Positions 1 to 12,570 of a DNA stretch of 15,026 nt are shown one piece after another. A program made the position numbers and the translations under genes. This stretch comes from Acanthamoeba lenticulata (lineage: Eukaryota > Discosea > Longamoebia > Acanthamoebidae). Under the pieces are notes generated by a model. That model was not told the origin of the DNA, ran no database searches, and saw only the letters and a program-made list of their open reading frames with translations. Within the stretch, counting starts at the first letter, position 1, and each line of letters begins with the position of its first letter. The stretch is taken from positions 1-15,026 of the forward strand of contig NAVB01002555.1 of assembly GCA_002179805.1 (NCBI GenBank), written 5' to 3'.

Positions 1-1848
1 TGAGGTCCTTGCCCATTGCTGCGAGCTTGGTTCCGGCTTCGCTTTTCGAGTTAATGTCGCTGACGAGCGAGCCGTTGAGCGGGATCTCGCCCTTGAACTG
101 GTAGCGCGTGCCCTTCTTTTGTGTGTAGATGAGGACGTCGTTGAACAGGAAACAGTACCGGACCTGTCCCTTGAGCTTCTTGTTGTACTTCATCAAGTCG
201 CCCTCCTTGTGGAACACACGGCCGAACAGGGTCACCGATTTCTGCTCTCGCCGGTGGATGTGATGAGCAGCCCGCAACCGCGAGGCGAGAAAACTGTTTT
301 TAAAAAAAGAGGACGGAACGCACGTTGTAGTCTTCGAGCAGGGCCTCGATTTCTTCGAGCTTGCGCTTGTTCTCCTGCGCGGCCTTGTTGCTGTTGACCC
401 GTCCGGCAATCTGGAGCAGCAACCGAGCAGGGTGAGGTCGTTCCTCAGGCCAAGAAAACGGATCAAGGGAAAGACCTCTTCAAAGGTGGCCTGGGTCTGC
501 TTGAGGTCGTTCAAGTCGGCCGAGTCTTCGGTTGTGAGCTTGGTCAGCTCGCGGAACAGGAGCGGGTACTTGCAAATGCCTGGTGGCCACAACATGTTCA
601 AAACAACGTGAAATTCGAGTACGAAACTGTGAACAGGTGGAAAGGGGGAGGTACGCTGAATGGGCTTGATGAGGAAGTCGCGCAAGTACAGGCCCTGTGT
701 CATCTTCTCCATTTGCGTCTGCAAGCGGAGCGACGTTCAAGATGAGCCATCTGATGGGCGGGTTCAAGTGGAGCCCCGAGCCGGCAAAACGAATGCGGGG
801 GCTTGGCGTACGTCAAGCCAGGTCTTGAGGGAAGGGTTGCCGTTGATGCACTTTTGGAGGAGGTCCAACGCCTGGACGTGGTCCACGCAGTATTGTCCGT
901 ACACGGCCACGAGCCGGTCGGCCTGGACGCGAGGGCGTTCAAGAAACCGACGATCAGTTATGAGGAGGAGGAGGCGGATGGGGAAGCCCTTTTTGCGAGG
1001 CCACACGCACATATTGGATGAAGGCCTGGCTGATGGCGGTGACCATTTCCTCAAGCGTGGCCACTTTCTCCGCCTTGTTGACGCTGTCGCTGATGCGATG
1101 GTAGATCTCGCAGTGAATGAAGTACCTGCATGTGCACAAATGAGCGGGCCATTCTGCGTCACGTGGCTGGGCTGCGGTTCGTCATCTGATGCGCGCCCAC
1201 GTACAGGAACTCCATGTTGGAGAAGATATGCGAGACATCGGCGGGTTTCATGAGGTGGGCCGAGTTCCGCAGCGGGAACAGATAAGACTGCGCACACACG
1301 TGGGCGTGGCATTGGTGAAGTCAGTTGTTTGTTGGAGCGATCACAGGATAAGTCATTTACGTCAATGCACATGCGCAGGTCATCGATGTAGTTCTCTTCG
1401 GTCACCAATATCTCTTCCACCACGAGCGCCCTGGACCACCACCCACGCGGCTTGGGTCAGCCAAACACTCCGCCGAAACTGCGAGCCCAGCAAGCAAGCC
1501 GGACGGACACAAAGAGCGACAAAAGAACAACTCAAAAATAAAATAAAAAAAATGAATAAACACGTTTCCGACTCCGCAAACCACGCACCGGCGGTCGGAG
1601 GGCTGTTCGGTGGGGGGGAAGGCGAAGCTTCCAGAACGTGACTGCGGAGAAAGCTGCCTCGAGCTTCTGTTTTCATGGCGCGATGACGGCGGACTCCCTT
1701 CGGGCAATAATACAGAAACGAAATCAACAAGATGATGAGCAGGCATAGAGGATGGAGAAGAGGTCAAAAAATAAGGGATGTGGGTACCCGGACCGCCGGC
1801 AGAGCCGGTCTTTGTGCGCTCTTTCATGCGCTGCTGAAGGAGCTCCAT
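1..1848 (-). CDS. Dbl-family Rho guanine nucleotide exchange factor (DH-PH), 3' end outside window
   Basis: Activates Rho/Rac-type GTPases by GDP release, probably at membranes or cortical actin (family knowledge). My model has ten exons, listed 5' to 3' on the minus strand: 1848-1788, 1697-1589, 1430-1361, 1287-1205, 1125-1011, 922-812, 718-655, 579-476, 410-324 and 241-1. Every junction is frame-consistent, giving about 348 residues in the window. The DH domain runs about residues 58-250. Its first helix contains VEEILVTEENYIDDL, and the most conserved DH helix is FLIKPIQRICKYPLLFREL, completed only after splicing the 579/655 junction. A PH domain follows from about residue 269 (VTLFGRVFHKEGDLMKY, then YCFLFNDVLIYTQKKG) and is cut by the window edge. 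The first 57 residues are Ser/Arg/Pro-rich and unstructured. The start is the ATG at 1848. The second intron (158 nt, A/T-rich) is the longest here, so the N-terminal join is the least certain part. The target GTPase cannot be read from sequence. Confidence 0.88.
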
Positions 1849-2211: not shown

Positions 2212-5200
2212 ATGGCGTCAGGGCCGTTGAAAGACCTCACTTTTGCGCTTGAGCTGGGACTTGCTGTCCCCTTCAAGAAGAAGCAAGAGATTAACCGCTT
2301 GATCACCGACAATGGAGGCCGAGTGGCGTACATGATTAACAGAAAGGTACCTAGTCCCCTTCGCGTCACTCTGTTCCGCGCTGTGCTGCGGTTGGGCCAA
2401 CAACTCGAGGTGGCCGTGCAGACTTCCTACCTGGTAGCCAGCGACGACATTCTGCAAAAGAGCTACTCGTCCAAGCTTCAAGCGGCTTCACGCCACGGCG
2501 TCCCCGTGGTCACACTCGACTTTCTCAAGGACTGCGTCGAGGCCGGCAGCCTCGTCTCGGCCAAGCCCTTCCTCCTCCAGGCCGGCAACAATGCTGGCAT
2601 GACCTGTACCCACCTACTGCTCTTCTTGTCTTGATGATATGTTGCTGGCTGGTCCAGGTGTGATGCCAACTCTTGCCTCGATGACCGCCATCATAACAAC
2701 TACAGCGGACGGCATGGCTCCTGGACTTAGCACGGTCAAGGTGGCGGCGCGCAAGCCGGTCGTAGCCCGTCCGCTGCCCACGGTGCGCGTGTGGCCCTAC
2801 AAGTCCTCCGAACCCGACGCGCCCGAGTGGCCCGAGGACAACTACGAGATTGCAAAGGCCGACGTCCTCCAGGTGCGGGACTGCAGCGACGGCGCCGGGG
2901 CTGGTGCAACTGAGCTTGGGCGCTCACGAGTTTGCTCACGGCGTGCAGAAAGGCTTCAACTACTTCAACGTGGAGCTGCACGTGGCCGAGCCGCCGCGCA
3001 AGAGGCGCATGTACCGTGTGTTTACACACGCCGGTCTCGTGATGGACCTGGACGTCAACCCGCAGACTGGTGGGACCAAAGAGGTCCGCTACTTGGCCAA
3101 CCTCCAGGACGCCGAGAACGTCTACGCCCATCTGTACAATGTCATGCGCGGGCTCGACTACAAGCGCGTCAGCCTGCTCGCCACCAGCCGCATTGGCTCG
3201 GACAAAGTGCGTGCTGCCACCAGTTGCCGTGGCCCGCTTGGCAAGCCACTTGAGGCGCTGGCTAACGGAACCCTATATATTTGGTACAGGCCCAGGTGCA
3301 GGGGAACCGCGTGATGCAGGGCCCGTCCGCGCTGGCCGAACCCGTGCAAAGGCTCGTGGAGTATCTCTACTCAGAGGCCACCCACAAGCTCGCGTCCGCG
3401 CTCGCCGGGTACGAACTGAGTGGATGGTCGGCCGTGGCGATGATCCATGTGTTTGAAGGCTGACGCGTACGACCGTACTGCACAGACCGCTCGGAACGCT
3501 GACCCTGCAGCAGGTGGAGAAGGGCGAGTCCATCTTGATGCAGGTCTACCAGGTTCTCCGGGCCTCCAACTACAGCCCCGCGGCTGAGCAGTTGGCCGAG
3601 ATCCGCGCGCTCTCCAAGGTGCGACCGCCCTCTGCAAGCGCAACCCTTCAGGGCCTGCGCAGTGGCTCACGCCTCGTCTCGCCTCGTGCGGGTCGTGCAG
3701 GAATTCTACTCGGCCGTGCCGCAAACGCAACAGCCCGCTGTGGACAACGCGGTGGTGCTCGAGGAGAAGCAGGAGCTCATCCAGCTGCTTAAGGACATGC
3801 TCACCGTATGACCTGCTCGCGCTCACTCATTGGTTCGTGGTTCAGGGCACTGAACAGTCACTCGTGCCCATTCACAGGTGGACGAAATTACTGGCGACAC
3901 GGCTACTGCCGAGGTCGACATGAAGTACCGCGCGCTGCGGTGCCAGATTAGTGCGCTGGCGCCCGAATCTGAGGACTACGCCAAGATCCAGGAGATGGTA
4001 ACGACCACGCAGGTCAAGGGCTCCAAACTCCAAGTCCGCAACGTCTACGCCGTACGACGCGAGGTCGAGCACCAGCTGTTCACCAAGCACATCGATAACC
4101 AGCGCCTGCTGTTCCACGGCTCGCGCATCAGCAACTGGGTGGGCATCCTCAGTCGCGGCGTGCTGCTGCCCCACATCGTGACCCAGTCGGGCGGCACGCG
4201 GACCGACGCCGGCATGCTGGGCGCCGGTATCTACTTTGGCGACTGCTCGTCGACAGCTGCTCAGTACACCACCCCCGGCAAGCAGGGCACCCGCATGATG
4301 CTGGTCTCCAAAGTCGCCCTGGGCAAGTCGGCCGACATCACCAGAATCGATACGAGCATCACGGAGCCGCCCAAGGGCTACGACAGCGTGCATGGCGTCC
4401 GCTCGACGCCTTCGCAGGTACACGGTTTGCACTCGGGGTGCGGTTTGAGTAGAGTTGAAGGACTTCTTTCTGATCGTGCTTGCCTGTGCTTCTCGTGCAG
4501 ACGACAGACTTTGTCGACGACGAATACGTCATCTACCGGACGGCGCAGCAGCACATGTCCTACCTGGTCGAGTTCGCCAGTGAGGCCGATCGCCCGCAGC
4601 CGGCGCCGCGCTCGTCCTTGTACAGCCAGCAGCAGGTCGTGCTGCAGTCCAACCTCATCGTCCCGGCAGAGGACTATGAGCAGCTGCCCAACGCTTCAGC
4701 TGCCGTCGAGGCGCCAAAGGAAGAGGAGGATAAGGGCAACGAGCAGGACCAGGAAGCCGGCCTCATGTCCAAGAGCGGCGAGGCTGTTCCCCTCAAGTCC
4801 GTCCATGTCCGGGCCACCCTTCTCGACATGGTGGCCAAGGTTGTAGTGTTACAGGTGCGTCAACCCCCTTGGCTGCCATCCTTGTGATTGTCTCCACCAA
4901 CGTGACCGGCCATGGGTGGACACACGCAGCATTACCACAACGCAAGTCAAGTGCCGATCGAGGCCAAGTACGTGTGCCCGCTGGACGAAATGGCAGCCGT
5001 GTGCGGATTCGAGGCATTTATCAACGGCAAGCACATCATCGGCGAGGTCAAAGAGAAGGAGAAAGCCCACAAGGAGTACAAGGAAGCTGTCGCGGCCGGG
5101 CACGGCGCCTACCTCATGGACGAGGGTACGAACCTCGTCTATGTCATCCGCGGACTCCTTCGCTGACCTGGAGACTTGGCGTACACAGAAAAACCCGACG

Positions 5201-8200
5201 TGTTCACCGTGAGCGTGGGCAATCTGGTAAAAGCAGCTACCCGCGCTGAAGCCCTGTGACCTCGACAGCTGACGTGTCACGTGATTGGTTGAGTGCAGCC
5301 GCCCAACTCGTCGGTGTTGATCAAGATCACGTACGTGACGGAGCTGGGCGTCGAGGGACCCAACATTGCGTTTGTGCTGCCGGCCAGCGTGTCGCCGCCG
5401 CAACGTGACCAAGCTCTGAAGGATATCACTCAGACCGTGACGCAGACGGTCAACGTCGAGGGCGGGCTGCCGCTCGACCTGCAAGTGTCGATCGACATGC
5501 CCTACCCCATTGTGCGGCTCAAGAGCCCGTCCCACCCGGGCCGCCTGCAGATCAAGCAGACCCAGACCAAGGCCACGGTCCAGCTCAAGCCCAACACGTC
5601 GCTCGAGGGCCGCCCGTTCACGTTGCTCGTGGGCCTGGAGAAGCCCTACGAGCCTCGCATGTGGGTCGAGGAGGACGTCGCCAGCGGCAAGTACGCCGCG
5701 ATGGTGGCCTTTTACCCCGATTTCCAGTTTGATGGCGAGGCGCCGGACGACCACGAGTTCATCTTCCTGGTGGACCGCTCGTCATCCATGAAGGGTGAGC
5801 CTTTTGATGACATGAAGCGCTGCCTGCTGGTCTGCCTTGAACGCTTGGCCCAGATGAACGGTACCGACCACTATCTTCATGAAAGGTGGCTTTTTCAGTT
5901 CGACCCAGCGCTGATGATGTTTGGGCGTATGCGGCGCGACAGCGACCTTCAACATCGTCTCGTTCGGCTCGACGTATGAGCGCCTGTTTGTCGACAGCCG
6001 ACCAGCGGCCGATCCGTCCGCCATGGCCACCGCTCGCAATTACGTCAACCAGATGCGCCCCAACTTTGGCGGCACCGAGCTGTGGCAGCCCCTCCGCTCG
6101 CTGTTCCTGCTGGCCCACGAGGATCGCACCCCGCGCAACCTCTTCGTCTTCTCCGACGGCCACCCGACCAACCAGGTAGCTTTGTCCGCCCCTAATTCTA
6201 GTGCCCCAGCCCTTTGGTCGAAAGCAGGCTTGGACTCACACAAGGCCACGCCCACAGGACGCGCTGGTCGAGTTGATCAAGCAGAATGCGGCGCACACGC
6301 GCTTGTTCTCGTTCGGCTTTGGCAGCAGCTGCTCGCGTCACATGGTGCGCTCGTTGGCCCGCGTCGGAGGCGGCATGGCCGAGTTCATGCCCCCCAATAA
6401 GCTTCCGACCCGCGCCAAGATCGACCGTCAGCTCCGGCGCGCCCTCCAGCCCGGTACGTCTCGCTCCGTCCTCGTACTCTTCTTTTAGCTCATGCCCCAC
6501 TTCCAAATCGCATCTTGCGCACTCTTCAGCCCTGTCGGACATCAGCGTCGAGTGGAACCTGTCGGAGCGCGGATCGCTGATGCAGGCGCCCGCCCAGCTG
6601 GCGTCGCTCTTCTTTGGCGAGCGCCAGATCGTGTATGGTTTTGTCGACTACTGCACCGCCGCCACCCTCAAGGCACGCACCACCTCGGCGAGCTTTCATC
6701 CCAGTAGAGACGTGATCTGATCGAGATGGGTTCGTAACACACGCAGGCCAAGAACGGGGAGATGGAGGTGAGCAACCTGGTCAGCACGCACGACTTGAGC
6801 ATCACTCGAGGCTCCATGATCCACACGCTAACTGCGCGCGCCATGATCCGCGACTGGTAAGCCTTAAACGCTTGGGTCTTCCCTCCTCTGTGTTGCCGAC
6901 CCTCACCTCCACCGCGCGCAGGGAGGACGGCAACTACGACAAGGACGCGCTCATCCACGAGATCGTCAAGCGGAAGCGGAAGGAGGAGATCATCAAGCTC
7001 TCCATCCGCTATTCGTTGGTGACGCAGTTCACCTCCTTCGGTGCGTTTCCCAAAAGACCAAGCTCGACTCCAGTCGACGCGAAATCTAACCGTACGACGA
7101 ACATTGCCCGAGCAGTGGCCATCGAGAAGCGCGAGCCGGGCGAGGCCGTGGTGGAGGGGCCGTCCATCGAGGAACTGGTCATGAAGGAGACCGTGGACGT
7201 GCTCCCCTACGTCGGCTGGCAAGAGGAAAAGCCCGAGGCGGCAACCGGGCCGACAAAGTCGCGCAAGCAGTTGGTTGACAGCGCCAAGGAGGCGGCCGCT
7301 GCCCAGAACGTCGATGGTACGTAGTATGACCAGCGTTCGACGAGGTCAACCAGCTTCTCACAACGCCGTCGGTTACAGGAGCGATCCAGGCGATGCGATC
7401 CCTAGCCAACATGAACGTGGTCATGACCGACGAGGAGGTCCAGCTCTTCGGCAGCGCTTACGCCCAAAAGGTGCTTATTGTTGTCGTCGTCTTCAGTTTT
7501 GTTGTCGAGTTAGTTTCTCACGTGACGTCGATCGGCTGGATGCCACACCGCAGCTGACATCCGAGCTCGAGAAGCTACGCGAGGTGCGCGAGGCCGAGGA
7601 GGCCGACAAGGCCAGGGGCGTGTGGACCAAGATGGGCCAATACCGCAAGCAGCGCACACAGTTGGAGACCTCGCTGGCCAAGGTGGCCCAAGAGGCCCTC
7701 GCCGCCGTGGAGGCGCATGCCCTGCCGCGAGCGGCCACGGACCGGTCACGCTGCGACTTGGAGCTTCTGCGGGGCGAGTACTACCTAGCTCTGGCAGAGG
7801 CCACCACTGGGCCCAAGCGCAAGCAGCTGGGCACCAAGGCCCTCCAGAGCATGAAGGCCGCGACCCAGCTGGCGCAGGCCCAGGCTCTAGCCCAGGAAGA
7901 CCCCACCCTGGTCCGTCTGACGGTCAGGCAGGCCGCCGTCCACAAGCGGGTGCGCTGTCATCGCTCCCGCCCCACTCCCATGTGGTCGACTGAGCACAGC
8001 GCTGATTGGTCAATGTTGTTTGCGACAGATCATGGAGGATGACGAGCAGGCGCGCCAACTTGTGGAATGCCTGACGCCTGGCTTGTTTGCCCGGCAGCCT
8101 TCGCTGATGTCCTACGAGCGCGAGCTCGAGCAGATGGGCCTGTCTGTGGACTTGGCCTCAGAAGGCGGCTCTTGTGATGAAGATGAGGACGACTACAATG

Positions 8201-10559
8201 ATGACTATAACGAGAGTGGCACCGACTTCGACATCGCTTGCGAGCTGGACGGCGAATTATCCATGATCTATGAACAAAGCGACCTCGGCAGCCTGGAGCC
8301 CGCAGTGGACATGGACTATTTCAGCCCGCTTGCGCTGGTATCTAATGCCGCTCCGACCATCACCTCGGCAACGACAACGACGACTGCCGCAGTGCCGAGC
8401 TTCAGCCTTCAGCGCGCAGCGTCGCCGTTGCAGCAGAGGAGGGAAAAGATAGAGGTCGTCAGAGAGGAGAGAGCCGCGAGAGACCGCGAACGAGAGCGCC
8501 GCACCGATGAGGAACGGCGGGAAATGCGTGACACTGCGCAAGACAGCAGGATGAGGCTCTTTGGCCGTAAGAAGGAGGAGCGATCTGCACGGGATCTTGA
8601 CAGCGACTTGGACGACTACTTGACGAACTCCTTGCAGATGGCAGAGGAGGTCTCCATGGCCATGTCGCGGCCGATCCAGAAGGAGGAGATGATGAAGCGC
8701 CGCCGCTTACCGATTCAGTCCAAGCCTGCCGCCGCGCCGCTGAAGAGCGTTACCAAGGAACGGCGCATGGAAGAGGAGGAGAAGAAGAGCCTCTTCATGG
8801 AGGACGAGGAAGAGTGCGGGGCGGTGGAGGAGCAGGCGAGCAGCATGCCCCGGGCTTCTGGGAAAAAGGAGAAGAAGAAGAAGAAGGAGAGCAAGGACAA
8901 GAAGAGGAGGGACATGGCTCCGTCGGCCGAGCTGGCCCAGAACTTTGATTCCCTCTTCTGCGCTGAGCCGTTGCCATCGTCGAATTCGTCATCTTCGACG
9001 TACTGCGGCGATCCGTTCAGTGGCTTTTCGTTTGAGCCCGCCCCTCCGCCAACCCCAGCGCCGTTTGGCGGCCCGCCTCCTCCGTCCCCGGCATACGGGG
9101 CCCCGCCCGCTGCGGCCCCGCCCATGCCATTCATGCCGGTCGCTGCTGCAGCTCCCGCTCCGCTATCCCCATCAGCAATGCGGTCGTCATCGGTGTCAGC
9201 GTCGTCGGCACCAGCGCAAGGCGGCTTCCGTTACGCGTTTGCCCCGACCAAGCGCATGACGAACTCTCGTGCCCAGCTGGCGGCACCACAGGTGAAGCCA
9301 CAGCAACAGCAACAGCAACAACAGCAACAGCAACAGCAGCAACAGGCGATGCCTTCCTACAAGCTGAACAGAAAGAAGGGCTACGTCGAAAAGGGAGACT
9401 CCTTCATGAAGACCGATTTCCTTTCGTCGCTGAAGAGCGTCGATAAATCCTTGGCAGAAAGCAAGAGCGCCCACTACGCCGATGATGATGATGATGATGA
9501 AGGTGGTGGTACGAGCAGCTTGCTTGTCGTTTATCGTCATTGCTGCTTGGAGTTCTCTGGACAGCTGACACGAGCGGAGGCGTTACAGCGGCACCGCAGG
9601 CGGACCAGCCCGAAGAGGCCGCGGGTGGCGGCGGTGGCGGTCAGATCTTCGTGAAGACCCTCACCGGCAAGACCATCACGCTCGAGATGGACCCCGGAGA
9701 CTCCATCGAGACCATCAAGCAGCGCCTCCAGGACAAGGAAGGCATTCCGCCCGACCAAATGCGTTTCATCTTTGCCGGCAAGCAGCTGGAGGACGGCCGC
9801 ACCCTCTCGGATTACAACATGCAGAAGGAGTCCACCCTCCATCTCGTCCTCCGCTTGCGTGGGCCGTCAGTGCAGTGCCCCGATAAGTGGATGCACGTCC
9901 TGCGGCTGCAGAAGCAGAGCGGTGGCCTCAATCCGGGCGTCAACTGGGAGCTCACCAACGAGCTGGCCGAGATCTTGGGTTCGGTGCACCCACTCCAGTT
10001 GTCCCGCCCCACTTGTGTGCGTGTGTGCCTGACCACACTCTCTGGCTTCATCATGTTCCAGGTGTGTCGCTGGACAGCATCACGGACAAGCTCGCCATGA
10101 CTGGTGTCAAGTCGCTCGGCATTCAGCCCTTCGAGCTGCTCCAGATCCTCTTCGCCACAGCGCTCGCCTTGGCCTACCTCGACCTCGCAGAGACTTCATC
10201 GTCCAGCGCTTGGTTCGTCTTCTTTTTCTCCACGCCCCTTTTTCACTGCGTCCCCCGGGTCGTCTGACGGACGGCCTCCCACCCACAGGAAGGTCAAGGT
10301 GGACGCCGCGCGCGAGTGGCTCAAGAGGCAAGAAGAGCAGAACGCGGATCTCTTCAGGACGTTGGAGATCCGCGGAGGCCTCATGCCGCTGGCGCGCAAC
10401 TTCCTCATCCGCAACACCACCGTCGACATCATTCGCATGTGCTCCCCTGACGAGGACGAGGAGCCGGCTCGCCCTGCCCTCGTGCCGCCGGAAGACCTCA
10501 GCGGTGGTGGAGACTACGCGCCTTCGTTTGTTCTCCCGCCCAACCCCTACAGCTTCTGA
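2212..10559 (+). CDS. Vault poly(ADP-ribose) polymerase (PARP4/VPARP-type) with added 14-3-3-like and ubiquitin domains
   Basis: Transfers ADP-ribose from NAD+ to proteins; animal PARP4 sits in the vault particle. My 24-exon model is 2212-2346, 2422-2605, 2658-2872, 2949-3206, 3290-3408, 3486-3618, 3701-3805, 3878-4417, 4501-4854, 4930-5125, 5189-5226, 5299-5860, 5943-6175, 6258-6453, 6530-6672, 6747-6856, 6922-7040, 7116-7316, 7379-7470, 7554-7949, 8029-9508, 9589-9978, 10062-10212 and 10289-10559, about 2206 residues (human PARP4 is 1724). Domains in order: BRCT (about 1-95), helical PARP regulatory region (265-383), and catalytic domain (384-595) with an H-Y-E triad H463 (LLFHGS), Y502 (GAGIYFGD), E571 (VDDEYVIY). 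Then VIT (about 660-805: [18 protein letters not shown]) and vWA with MIDAS D918-x-S920-x-S922, T991 and D1018. Next come a 14-3-3-like domain (1262-1465), a disordered exon, ubiquitin (1955-2029) and a vault-binding tail ([19 protein letters not shown]). The ATG at 2212 places BRCT at the N-terminus. Single-gene status rests on the PARP4-like domain order from BRCT to tail. Confidence 0.9.
6673..6746 (+). other. GC-AG intron within the vault PARP gene
   Basis: The exon ends CTCAAG and the next bases are GCACGC, giving a GC rather than GT donor. The intron ends CACACGCAG and is 74 nt, close to the common length of its neighbours. Removing it joins ...AATLK to [12 protein letters not shown] in frame and restores the PARP4 vWA-downstream sequence. 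In-frame read-through meets TGA at 6718-6720. The only in-frame GT donor nearby (GTGATC at about 6712) would leave an intron of about 35 nt, too short compared with the others. Confidence 0.7.
7259..8094 (+). other. 14-3-3-like domain encoded inside vault PARP (exons 18-21)
   Basis: After splicing, residues about 1262-1465 follow the 14-3-3 helix pattern from its start. [14 protein letters not shown] matches the first helix (LVYxAKLAEQA type). [20 protein letters not shown] followed by SAY matches the M-K-x-V...ELTxEERNLLSVAY block. A charged stretch then ends in [12 protein letters not shown], like the helix before the family's LIP turn. [16 protein letters not shown] matches the signature [21 protein letters not shown] matches the NPIRLGLAL block. 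The phosphopeptide pocket is not conserved: the positions equivalent to human zeta K49, R127 and Y128 are A1309, L1389 and A1390, and R56 is also lost. The last helix is weak or missing. I see this as a degenerate scaffold or dimerisation domain; a plain helical coiled coil is the alternative. Confidence 0.7.
9301..9345 (+). repeat. Poly-glutamine tract, 15 mixed CAG/CAA codons
   Basis: Fifteen consecutive Gln codons in frame within exon 21 of vault PARP. CAG and CAA are interspersed rather than pure CAG, which generally lowers slippage and indicates an older or selected tract. It follows the Ala/Pro-rich segment and precedes a short Lys-rich stretch. Confidence 0.95.
9481..9498 (+). repeat. 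(GAT)6 microsatellite encoding six aspartates
   Basis: Six perfect GAT repeats encode Asp6, followed by Glu and Gly residues, immediately before the 3' end of exon 21. It is a short pure trinucleotide array, so length polymorphism between strains would be expected without frame loss. Confidence 0.95.
9642..9866 (+). other. Internal ubiquitin domain of vault PARP
   Basis: After a six-glycine linker, 75 codons match ubiquitin residues 2-76, starting [15 protein letters not shown] and ending [12 protein letters not shown]. By my reading there are 13 differences from human ubiquitin, among them K29R, Q41M, L43F, I61M and G76P. Leu8, Ile44, His68 and Val70 of the hydrophobic patch are kept, as are K6, K11, K27, K33, K48 and K63. 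With Pro in place of Gly76 and more protein following, it should be neither processed by deubiquitinases nor conjugated. It is embedded in one exon, directly before the vault-interaction tail. Confidence 0.95.
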
Positions 10560-10661: not shown

Positions 10662-12570
10662 ATGGACGGCAAAAGGCTGGCCGAGGATGACGCCGCGTGG
10701 GGTGTGTTCGGAGACAGCGACGCCGATGACGACGGTGTGCCTCCCCCTCTGGCCCAGGAGAACGGAGAGTCTGCTACATCTGCTACATTGTCGGAGGCAT
10801 GGGAGATTTTTGACAATGACGACAACTGCCCTGCGCCCGACTTGGAGCTGACACATCAGACAGAGGAAGTGCAAGCGTCAGCACTCCCGGCCACAACGAG
10901 CAGCACCTCCATGCACGCTTCTGCTCCGGCTGCATCCAAATCGCAGCGCTCTCGTCTGGCCGATTTGCTACACAGATTTGCTGACGAACACCTCCGGCAA
11001 ACTTGTCTTGATCTGCGGGAGGTGGGTCAGTCGGCTCTCGCAGAACTGCTCTCCTCCATCTTCGCGCTGTTTGTCAACCCCCAGGCCGATGCTGAAGTGT
11101 TGACGAAGGCGAGGCAACTGAACGACACCGCTTGGGATCGTCTCACACGTGGAGCAGGGTGGGACCACGTGTGCTGGCGCGAGTCCTTTGTGTTCGCGCA
11201 GCTCTTCATCGCCCTAGCGCTTGTCGGTGATCGCCTTCAACCTGCTGGCCAGTCGCCTGCCACTGGTGCCGTTCTCCCTCTGTAGCGCGCCTCCACCATT
11301 TGGTGATCCGCTTACCACGAGTTGCCGCAGGACAGATGAGAACCTGCGACAGGCGGTGAAGCACTTGGACATGGCCATCATCATGGGCGGGCCGGGGGAC
11401 CTGGTGCAGGCGTTCCTCGAGCAAGTGGAACCGCTCATTGTGGCCACCAGCCGAGCGGCGACACCCTCGTCGCAGGTGCGTCATGGTCCCATGTGGGCCC
11501 CATGAGCCATCTGCGGCTTGCTTACTCCAACTGCGTGCCAACACCACAGGACGCGGCTTACTTGCTCGTGCAAGATCTGCCGTGTAGCAAGCAGGTGCCC
11601 GTGATTCAGCACCCCATCGCCCGAGAGGCCCGGCCCACCCTGGCCACCTTCCGCAAGACGTACTTTGACCACCAGCAGCCCGTCGTAATCACAGGTTCGC
11701 ACAGGCGAAGGAGGAAAAAGAAAGTGCAGACTTGGCCAACAACAGAGCGATTGTTATGCAGGAGCGACGACTGGCTGGCGAGCACCGGCCAAGTGGCGAG
11801 ACCTGGCCTACCTCGCGCGTGAATACGGCCACCGCACGGTGCCCGTTGAGATCGGGCGTCCCCTGGATGAGGACGAGCGTGCGAGGACCAGCGGCAAGCA
11901 GACCTGGAAGGAGAGCGCCGTCACGCTGGGCGACTTCATCGACACCTACCTCCTCCCCAGCAGCCGACACGACCACGCCCGATGCGCTGCGGCCGCGAGC
12001 GATGAGGACGAGAACGATCACGGACTGGCGTTCGAGCAGATCGGGTACTTGGCTCAGCACGCGCTCATCGAGCAGCTGCCGTCGTTGCAGGACGACTTCA
12101 CGCCGCCGCCGTATTGTGCGCTGGGCGAGCTGTCCAACATCAACACATGGCTGGGCACGTCGGGCACCGTAACGTCGCTCCACTTTGACAGCTACGACAA
12201 CTTCCTCACGCAAGTGGCCGGTTTCAAGTACGTGCGTCTTTACCACCCGAGCCAGACGCCATTCCTCTACCGCGACACCGGTGTCGCTAAGGGCGCGCCG
12301 ACGAGCCACGGCGACGACAAGACGCACGCGCAACGTGATGGGGAGGAGAAGGAGGAGATGACCATTTCCGCGCAGACCGCCAAGGCGCAAGGCAACTTCA
12401 GCGCTGTGGTCGACGTCGAGCACCCCGACTGGACGCGGTACCCGCTTCTGCGTGAGGCCGTGTACACGGAGACCATTCTGGGGCCGGGCGACATGCTCTT
12501 TATCCCGCAAAATTGCTGGCACTACGTGCGATCGCTCACCACGTCCTTCTCGCTCAACTTCTGGTTCTGA
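10662..12570 (+). CDS. KDM8: JmjC-domain 2-oxoglutarate oxygenase, KDM8/JMJD5-like
   Basis: A 2-oxoglutarate/Fe(II)-dependent oxygenase. Human JMJD5 is described as a protein (arginyl) hydroxylase also linked to histone tails; the substrate here is unknown. Exons are 10662-11226, 11336-11475, 11550-11694 and 11762-12570, about 552 residues (human about 416). The N-terminus is acidic and disordered (about 1-95). A helical domain follows (about 100-240: FVFAQLFIALALV, HLDMAIIMGGPGDLV), as in JMJD5. The JmjC part begins near HPIAREARPTLATF and includes PVVITG, then KWRDLAYLAREYGHRTVPVE after splicing. The Fe-binding residues are H424-x-D426 (SLHFDSYDN) and H537 (NCWHYVRS). K439 (FKYVRLY) sits at the 2-oxoglutarate lysine position, 15 residues after the first His as in JMJD5. 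About 34 extra residues, acidic and Lys-rich, lie between these motifs. The start is the first in-frame ATG after TGA at 10654. The first 3' splice site (AG at 11334-11335) was chosen because it alone keeps frame. Confidence 0.9.

Follow-up and report, generated by a model that had tools for sequence, protein, structure and literature searches.

A 14-3-3 domain with a replaced phosphate pocket inside a vault PARP of Acanthamoeba lenticulata

Proteins of the 14-3-3 family are best known as free-standing dimers that recognize phosphoserine. In a stretch of 15,026 nucleotides from the amoeba Acanthamoeba lenticulata (contig NAVB01002555.1; the whole stretch is called the window hereafter) we identified a predicted 14-3-3 domain that is encoded by exons 18-21 of a vault PARP gene and in which the residues of the phosphate pocket are replaced. 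We propose, with a probability of about 0.62, that this domain would work as a phospho-independent helical scaffold on the VIT-vWA platform of the enzyme. The fusion itself is already published: section 3.1.2 of Perina et al. (2014; PMC4245714) describes PARP4-like proteins that combine VIT and vWA with an appended 14-3-3 domain, and the fusion hosts named in that paper are three dictyostelids, Acanthamoeba castellanii, a lancelet, a sea urchin and Capsaspora. The fusion is therefore known, and its novelty, which the first-pass annotation of this DNA had implied, is ruled out; the window represents a further genome with the same architecture, namely a 14-3-3 match after the vWA region. On replaced phosphate residues, half domains and the loss of helices H-I in acanthamoebae, section 3.1.2 is silent. 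In the literature we searched, with most subscription papers lying outside it, no printed account of a lost pocket, of complementary erosion or of unannotated remnants of helices F-I was found.

The 14-3-3 domain of exons 18-21 and its host enzyme

Against the whole predicted protein the Pfam profile PF00244, whose curated cut-off is 33.2 bits, scores 63.3 bits (E = 3.2e-17) over residues 1270-1455 and profile positions 2-186 of 223, and against a 230-residue piece it reaches 70.0 bits (E = 2.8e-19). A genome search that ignores introns finds exon 20 above the cut-off by itself (38.3 bits, E = 2.2e-8). The first-pass annotation had placed a 14-3-3-like domain in exons 18-21 (7259..8094, residues 1262-1465) and had named a profile search with PF00244 as a check on it; both the domain and the residue numbering are reproduced, the latter by our manual 24-exon model. 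Among solved structures, phmmer ranks 14-3-3 epsilon chains from the PDB as the best relatives (E = 8.1e-19; the alignment covers residues 4-209 of the piece). In line with this, a profile of 13 vault-PARP pieces, which has the A. castellanii ortholog as its first row and does not include the window, compares with three canonical 14-3-3 proteins at a probability of 100 and E = 8.4e-42 (profile-profile comparison with hhalign). Helices A-G follow one another in the order and at the spacing seen in canonical 14-3-3 proteins (epsilon, zeta), whereas helices H-I lie outside the profile match, with 3/20 and 5/21 residues identical to canonical H and I, respectively. At the level of sequence, the full set of nine helices (A-I) that characterizes the family is not found in the window domain.

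We conclude that exons 18-21 encode a predicted 14-3-3 domain inside a vault PARP. The helical hairpins of 14-3-3 and TPR proteins look similar, which speaks for a generic TPR or coiled-coil stretch in its place; we regard this, or the assignment of these exons to a separate gene, as extremely improbable. At the level of sequence, a simple coiled coil is ruled out by the 70.0 bits to PF00244 together with the hhalign probability of 100 for the relatives. Exon 18 encodes both the tail of the VIT-vWA region and 14-3-3 helix A, so that the fusion join lies inside one exon, and orthologs join the same neighbors, which at the level of the predicted gene rules out a separate gene. The features of the gene are as follows (window coordinates).

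2212..10559, + strand: predicted vault PARP gene, 24 exons (open manual model; second copy with the same junctions)
2218..2538, + strand: BRCT domain, residues 3-84, exons 1-2 (Pfam PF00533, 40.2 bits; coordinates from the exon table)
Residues 277-395: PARP_reg domain (Pfam)
3968..4575, + strand: PARP catalytic domain, residues 414-588, exons 8-9 (Pfam PF00644, 115.2 bits)
4792..5334, + strand: VIT domain, residues 661-771, exons 9-12 (Pfam PF08487, 130 bits)
5758..6386, + strand: vWA domain, residues 913-1067, exons 12-14 (Pfam PF13768, 83.9 bits)
7116..7316, + strand: exon 18, end of the VIT/vWA tail (VAIEKRE), linker up to DVLPYVGW, 14-3-3 helix A and start of helix B
7283..8064, + strand: 14-3-3 domain match, residues 1270-1455, exons 18-21 (Pfam PF00244)
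7317-7378, 7471-7553 and 7950-8028, + strand: introns inside the 14-3-3 match
7379..7470, + strand: exon 19, from 14-3-3 helix B into the beginning of helix C (AIQAMRSLANMNVVMTDEEVQLFGSAYAQK); the K49 position is A
7554..7949, + strand: exon 20, remainder of helix C to helix G; R56 is L, R127 is L, Y128 is A, N173 is R
8029..9508, + strand: exon 21, remains of helix H (I unrecognizable), then a long low-complexity linker including a polyQ run
9645..9860, + strand: ubiquitin domain, residues 1964-2035, then RLRGP (Pfam PF00240, 102.7 bits)
9879..10421, + strand: predicted MVP-interacting C-terminal domain, about residues 2042-2169, exons 22-24 (four-relative profile)

The model yields 2214 amino acids without internal stop, and 22 of its 23 introns are GT-AG; the single GC-AG intron (6673..6746) is also kept in a second copy of the region. 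This copy was found on contig C973 (locus L009) of the 48.5-Mb assembly, in which the window is contig C1431, and is 97.7% identical to it across 9553 bases. The splice junctions agree between the two, and the frame of the copy stays open from exon 4 through to its stop codon (exons 4-24 examined); the copy probably represents the other haplotype.

The order of the domains (BRCT, PARP_reg, PARP, VIT, vWA, 14-3-3, ubiquitin, MVP-interacting C-terminus) begins with the BRCT-PARP_reg-PARP-VIT-vWA series of vault PARP (PARP4, clade 5) as called by Pfam. H463, Y502 and E571, which we take to be the catalytic triad positions by comparison with PARP1, are all present. The C-terminus alone finds human PARP4 at E = 0.02 in a single-sequence search, and a four-row profile of it matches human PARP4 residues 1572-1701, within the MVP-interacting domain, at E = 1.7e-11. 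The MVP shoulder domain (PF11978) occurs at two loci of the same genome (C746, 183.4 bits; C745, 180.3 bits). The window protein is thus, by its predicted domains, a vault PARP; its place in vault particles is a prediction. In human PARP4 a disordered segment is described as joining the VIT-vWA region to the MVP-interacting domain (PMC10450202), and in reconstituted human vaults PARP4 is described as forming peripheral belts of ~20 molecules per particle, with the MVP-interacting domain on the wall (PMC13174449, a preprint).

Two amoebae offer the closest comparison. The vault PARP of A. castellanii Neff (P0001, 2088 amino acids) is the closest named relative (61% identity over the searched region) and a probable ortholog with the same domain order and a 14-3-3 match to profile positions 2-185; it differs in that only 118/217 residues of the 14-3-3 region are identical and the deposited protein lacks the BRCT end. 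PARP4 of Balamuthia mandrillaris (P0002, 2502 amino acids) carries its 14-3-3 domain in the same place with 54/213 identities in the region, and differs from the window in that canonical-like helices H-I are kept and a ubiquitin match at E = 1e-5 or better was not found. The internal ubiquitin domain and tail of the window protein (9645..9869) end in RLRGP instead of RLRGG, so that the domain would likely not be cut off; RLRGP follows the ubiquitin domain of A. castellanii P0001 as well. A ubiquitin domain is also listed for many mollusc PARP4 rows, and ubiquitin-related domains are noted by Perina et al. for other clade 5 PARPs of A. castellanii (PMC4245714).

Phosphate pocket and dimer contacts

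To read the pocket we aligned two canonical 14-3-3 proteins of the same genome with the 11 vault domains in which some or all of the N-terminal half is retained. The 11 are the window and its copy (two separate rows), A. castellanii, Balamuthia, three dictyostelids, P0008, P0010, P0018 and the shorter P0059, which is gapped at K49. At the positions that we take to form the pocket, in human zeta numbering, the window carries K49A, R56L, R127L, Y128A and N173R, and K120 is replaced too. The first-pass annotation had already listed K49, R56, R127 and Y128 as replaced, and the alignment confirms this (A, L, L and A). Across the 11 domains, K49, K120, R127 and N173 are kept in none (0/11 each), R56 and Y128 in 1/11 each, R60 in 3/11 (the window, its copy and A. 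castellanii) and E131 in 4/11. The phosphopeptide pocket of the family (K49, R56, R127, Y128, N173) is therefore not found in the window, and among the matches listed a complete pocket occurs in 0 of the window and the 19 relatives in which PF00244 is annotated (see below). The ten annotated rows from animals and Capsaspora have matches that begin at or beyond R127-Y128, which by our own count corresponds to profile positions ~119-122, and that leave out helix C; N173 is kept in 1/10 of them.

With its pocket residues replaced, the domain is likely a structural part and not a phosphate reader. A pocket remodeled with other basic residues, and still at work, might draw on R60, kept in the three rows named above, and on a basic residue near helix E (RGEYY). 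As K49, R56, K120, R127, Y128 and N173 are all replaced in the window and half of the groove (helix I) is unrecognizable, we consider such a phospho-reader highly improbable. The 14-3-3-like domains of SMG5, SMG6 and SMG7, compared here by description, likewise place the 14-3-3 fold inside larger proteins, and unlike the window they retain the phosphoserine site.

Canonical 14-3-3 proteins dimerise, and the helix order is kept in the window, which favors a module that pairs vault PARPs with each other, or with free 14-3-3, a possibility raised by the first-pass annotation; the canonical interface for this lies in helices A-D. We examined 13 positions of helices A, C and D in the 11 domains, which we take to be the dimer contacts. 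Measured against one canonical reference, L12, Q15, I65, M78 and Y82 are kept in 0/11, R18 in 2/11 and E89 in 3/11, with a maximum of 5/11 at any of the 13 positions; M78 and K85 say little because the two references differ there. When either reference is allowed, position 62 (I/V) is kept in 9/11 and position 13 (S/A) in 6/11, which speaks for the pairing. At the level of sequence, the window has most of its dimer contacts replaced. Furthermore, the canonical dimer is formed by helices A-E, and these are mostly or entirely missing from the animal and Capsaspora halves. Crowding of PARP4 in vaults would help pairing (PMC13174449, preprint); against it stands the monomeric 14-3-3-like domain reported for SMG6 (PMC4132714). 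Canonical dimerisation thus appears poorly supported by the alignment, and we hold a dimerisation module to be improbable. Taken together, the replaced pocket and the mostly replaced dimer contacts favor neither phosphate reading nor canonical pairing.

Distribution and erosion across relatives

A search with the VIT-vWA-14-3-3 region of Balamuthia returned 591 proteins, of which the 120 listed form our census; isoforms and sister species are among them. PF00244 is annotated in 19 of the 120. These comprise, among the amoebae, A. castellanii, Balamuthia and three named dictyostelids, then two dictyostelid-like eukprot rows, one jgi and one lgn row, all without organism name, and among Holozoa Capsaspora, two sponges, four lancelet rows, two acorn worms and one annelid. 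The fusion, which the first-pass annotation proposed to look for in related amoebae, is thus present in A. castellanii, Balamuthia and dictyostelids. Its statement that animal PARP4 has no such domain proved wrong: a C-terminal half lies in the same place in lancelets, sponges, acorn worms and an annelid, and these annotated rows, along with the animal relative Capsaspora, rule out an absence from animals. On rescan two of the 19 rows fell below the cut-off (Glandiceps P0020, 28.7 bits; P0059, 31.9 bits). For the sea urchin row P0071 a PF00244 match up to E = 0.1 was not found, and only a profile remnant is seen. The Balamuthia 14-3-3 region alone as query found only itself and one lancelet protein.

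In 20/20 rows (the window and the 19 relatives) the 14-3-3 match starts 6-73 residues past a D-x-L-x-Y-x-x-[WF] motif. The parts of the profile (223 positions) that are matched differ between lineages. In the acanthamoebae the spans are 2-186 (window) and 2-185 (A. castellanii), followed by Balamuthia 26-220, Cavenderia 4-223, Heterostelium 7-220, D. purpureum 3-220, P0008 4-222, P0010 6-222, P0018 3-221 and P0059 94-222. In Holozoa they are Capsaspora 131-220, Corticium 131-223, Oscarella 125-218, Ptychodera 124-217, Glandiceps 129-193 and Owenia 127-222, and the four lancelet rows start at 122, 128, 129 and 130. In all annotated holozoan rows (10/10, animals and Capsaspora) the match therefore begins at 122-131, about where helix E gives way to helix F, and helices F-I are kept. 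Among the annotated rows only the acanthamoebae are without a match to helices H-I, which are the best-kept part elsewhere: identities to canonical H and I are 13/22 and 15/22 in Balamuthia and 16/22 and 15/22 in Cavenderia, and range from 10 to 16 of 22 in Balamuthia and five dictyostelid-like rows, as opposed to the 3/20 and 5/21 of the window. A profile of the canonical N-terminal half matches A. castellanii, P0008 and Balamuthia at E < 1e-3, with the next best of 120 segments at E = 0.57. This two-row profile misses the dictyostelid N-terminal halves (E no better than 2.0); they are recovered, by construction, once they are themselves part of the profile, and their span rests on the Pfam alignment.

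Remnants of helices F-I were sought with a profile of two canonical F-I halves. The segment searched was the stretch after the vWA tail, taken from 119 of the 121 relatives fetched, the anchor being absent in P0008 and P0093. Since an iterated search can drift, with rows gained in one round feeding the next, the canonical-only result is given beside it. The canonical-only profile finds 22 relatives at E < 1e-3. Five of these carry no Pfam annotation of the domain (two Physella isoforms, Oopsacas, Liolophura and Plakobranchus). In the iterated search, with P0008 restored, 49/120 segments exceed the best of 2400 shuffled decoys (8.2 bits), 18 of them annotated and 31 not. The other 71/120 are not above the decoys, among them A. 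castellanii, in which helices H-I are gone. Compared as profiles with canonical 14-3-3, two groups of the unannotated rows reach probabilities of 91 (gastropods, 47 columns) and 89 (urchins, corals and others, 46 columns), values that are not independent of the search by which the rows were picked. In two named sharks, a sturgeon row, one vertebrate-type row, a sea cucumber and the sponge Ephydatia, the linker was seen by eye and the F-I stretch was not.

Several further observations were made in the same proteins and genome. In rows from sponges, acorn worms and Capsaspora and in P0059 (P0009, P0013, P0019, P0020, P0031, P0059), the 14-3-3 remnant is followed within ~120 residues by an actin fragment of ~50-76 residues (PF00022, positions ~3-74); actin domains are also noted in Perina et al. 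(PMC4245714). Further divergent 14-3-3-like genes of the genome score 36-40 bits on a helix G-I exon (L012 on C40, L013 on C1210, L014 on C827); those on C40 and C1210 resemble alleles of each other. On the minus strand of contig C496 lies what may be a second 14-3-3 fusion (L016, G000:C496:11300-13257, plus coordinates 1000-1710 onward). There, an F-box-like stretch (partial PF00646, 20.2 bits, cut-off 20.5) is in one frame with FFAKLAEKAKRY, by eye a 14-3-3 start; Pfam made no call in that open reading frame, and PF00244 matches the exons that follow at 80.3 and 75.3 bits. In the C323 paralog of the same genome no PF00244 match was found in the genome search and none by eye; the linker region is present (43%, query 1-68). 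Next to the vault PARP gene, the window holds a downstream gene with a Cupin_8/JmjC-like domain (11689..12567, 135 bits) and, upstream on the minus strand (767..1456), a reading frame with a weak RhoGEF match (25.7 bits, below the cut-off of 27.6). An Rfam scan of the window gave zero matches at gathering scores.

A proposed scaffold on the vault enzyme

In the predicted protein the conserved D-x-L-x-Y-x-x-W linker of the VIT-vWA region would lead straight into the 14-3-3 domain, and the long low-complexity tether to the MVP-binding domain would follow. In this position the domain may contribute a rigid surface of helices, packed against the VIT-vWA body or a neighboring vault component; as a scaffold it would keep the enzyme positioned along the vault wall, independently of phosphate. 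By analogy, the PARP4 belts described for reconstituted human vaults (PMC13174449, preprint) make a packing or spacing role plausible. As to its history, the domain may have been fused once, before the split of amoebae and animals, and may have lost its pocket early; the animal line would later have shed helices A-E, acanthamoebae helices H-I, and other lines the entire domain. We give even odds to the full account, in which a 14-3-3 domain was built in before that split, became phosphate-blind, was kept as a scaffold and was whittled down per lineage, being whole in dictyostelids and Balamuthia, A-G in acanthamoebae and F-I in Capsaspora and many animals, and largely unrecognized in PARP4.

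Several points weigh against a scaffold role. The state of the groove and of helices H-I was judged from the alignment only, the window retains R60 and E131, and we know of no binding partner of the domain. The domain is dispensable in some lines, as seen from the 71/120 segments below the decoys and the C323 paralog, and D. discoideum is not in the 2014 list of fusion hosts (PMC4245714). Moreover, identity to A. castellanii is 118/217 in the 14-3-3 region compared to 118/121 in VIT and 398/460 in vWA (linker, 146/442). Between the window and its copy, the ratio of nonsynonymous to synonymous rates (dN/dS) of the 14-3-3 region is 0.315 (6 synonymous and 6 nonsynonymous differences), which is no different from the linker (Fisher p = 0.73); set against the conserved core, p is 0.059. 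Elsewhere the ratios are 0.157 (PARP part), 0 (VIT), 0.061 (vWA), 0.442 (linker), 0.294 (ubiquitin) and 0.773 (C-terminus), all of these values resting on small counts.

As the domain diverges much faster than its neighbors, at a ratio like that of the linker, it may be a decaying relic, that is, a former binder of phospho-ligands that has lost its role and now erodes without function. The loss of different halves in different lineages, the 71/120 segments without a remnant above the decoys and the missing remnants in four vertebrate-type rows, the sea cucumber and Ephydatia fit this chief rival. We nevertheless judge it unlikely, as the domain persists in A. castellanii, Balamuthia, three dictyostelids and several animal phyla, and helices H-I of Balamuthia and the five dictyostelid-like rows remain close to canonical. 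In addition, 6 of the 12 differences between the copies are synonymous compared to 2.9 expected, and 6 are nonsynonymous compared to 9.1 expected (one-sided binomial p = 0.048). The 14-3-3 region is under loose retention: it is kept, but loosely.

With regard to origin, a 19-row tree of helices F-I, in which 2/16 inner branches are starred, leaves single versus several origins undecided and places the lancelet halves near canonical 14-3-3 proteins, which likewise counts against our account. Independent fusions, of a whole 14-3-3 into amoebae and of a half into the animal line at the same spot, would explain this closeness (grouping 81/85), and the sharp start at profile positions 122-131 could mark an insertion boundary. 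However, the same position after the same linker motif in 20/20 rows, and one breakpoint common to Capsaspora, sponges, an annelid and deuterostomes, make such repeated fusion doubtful in our view. Position and shared linker thus favor a single origin, as far as sequences can tell.

In conclusion, a 14-3-3 domain that sits inside an enzyme without the residues for reading phosphate, from amoebae to animals, suggests that the fold can be kept for something else. The conserved linker and the 14-3-3 remnant make up a concrete, deletable piece of the enzyme, and the annotation of invertebrate PARP4 misses a domain remnant. If our account is true, the 14-3-3 fold would be reducible to a half-domain module of the vault enzyme.

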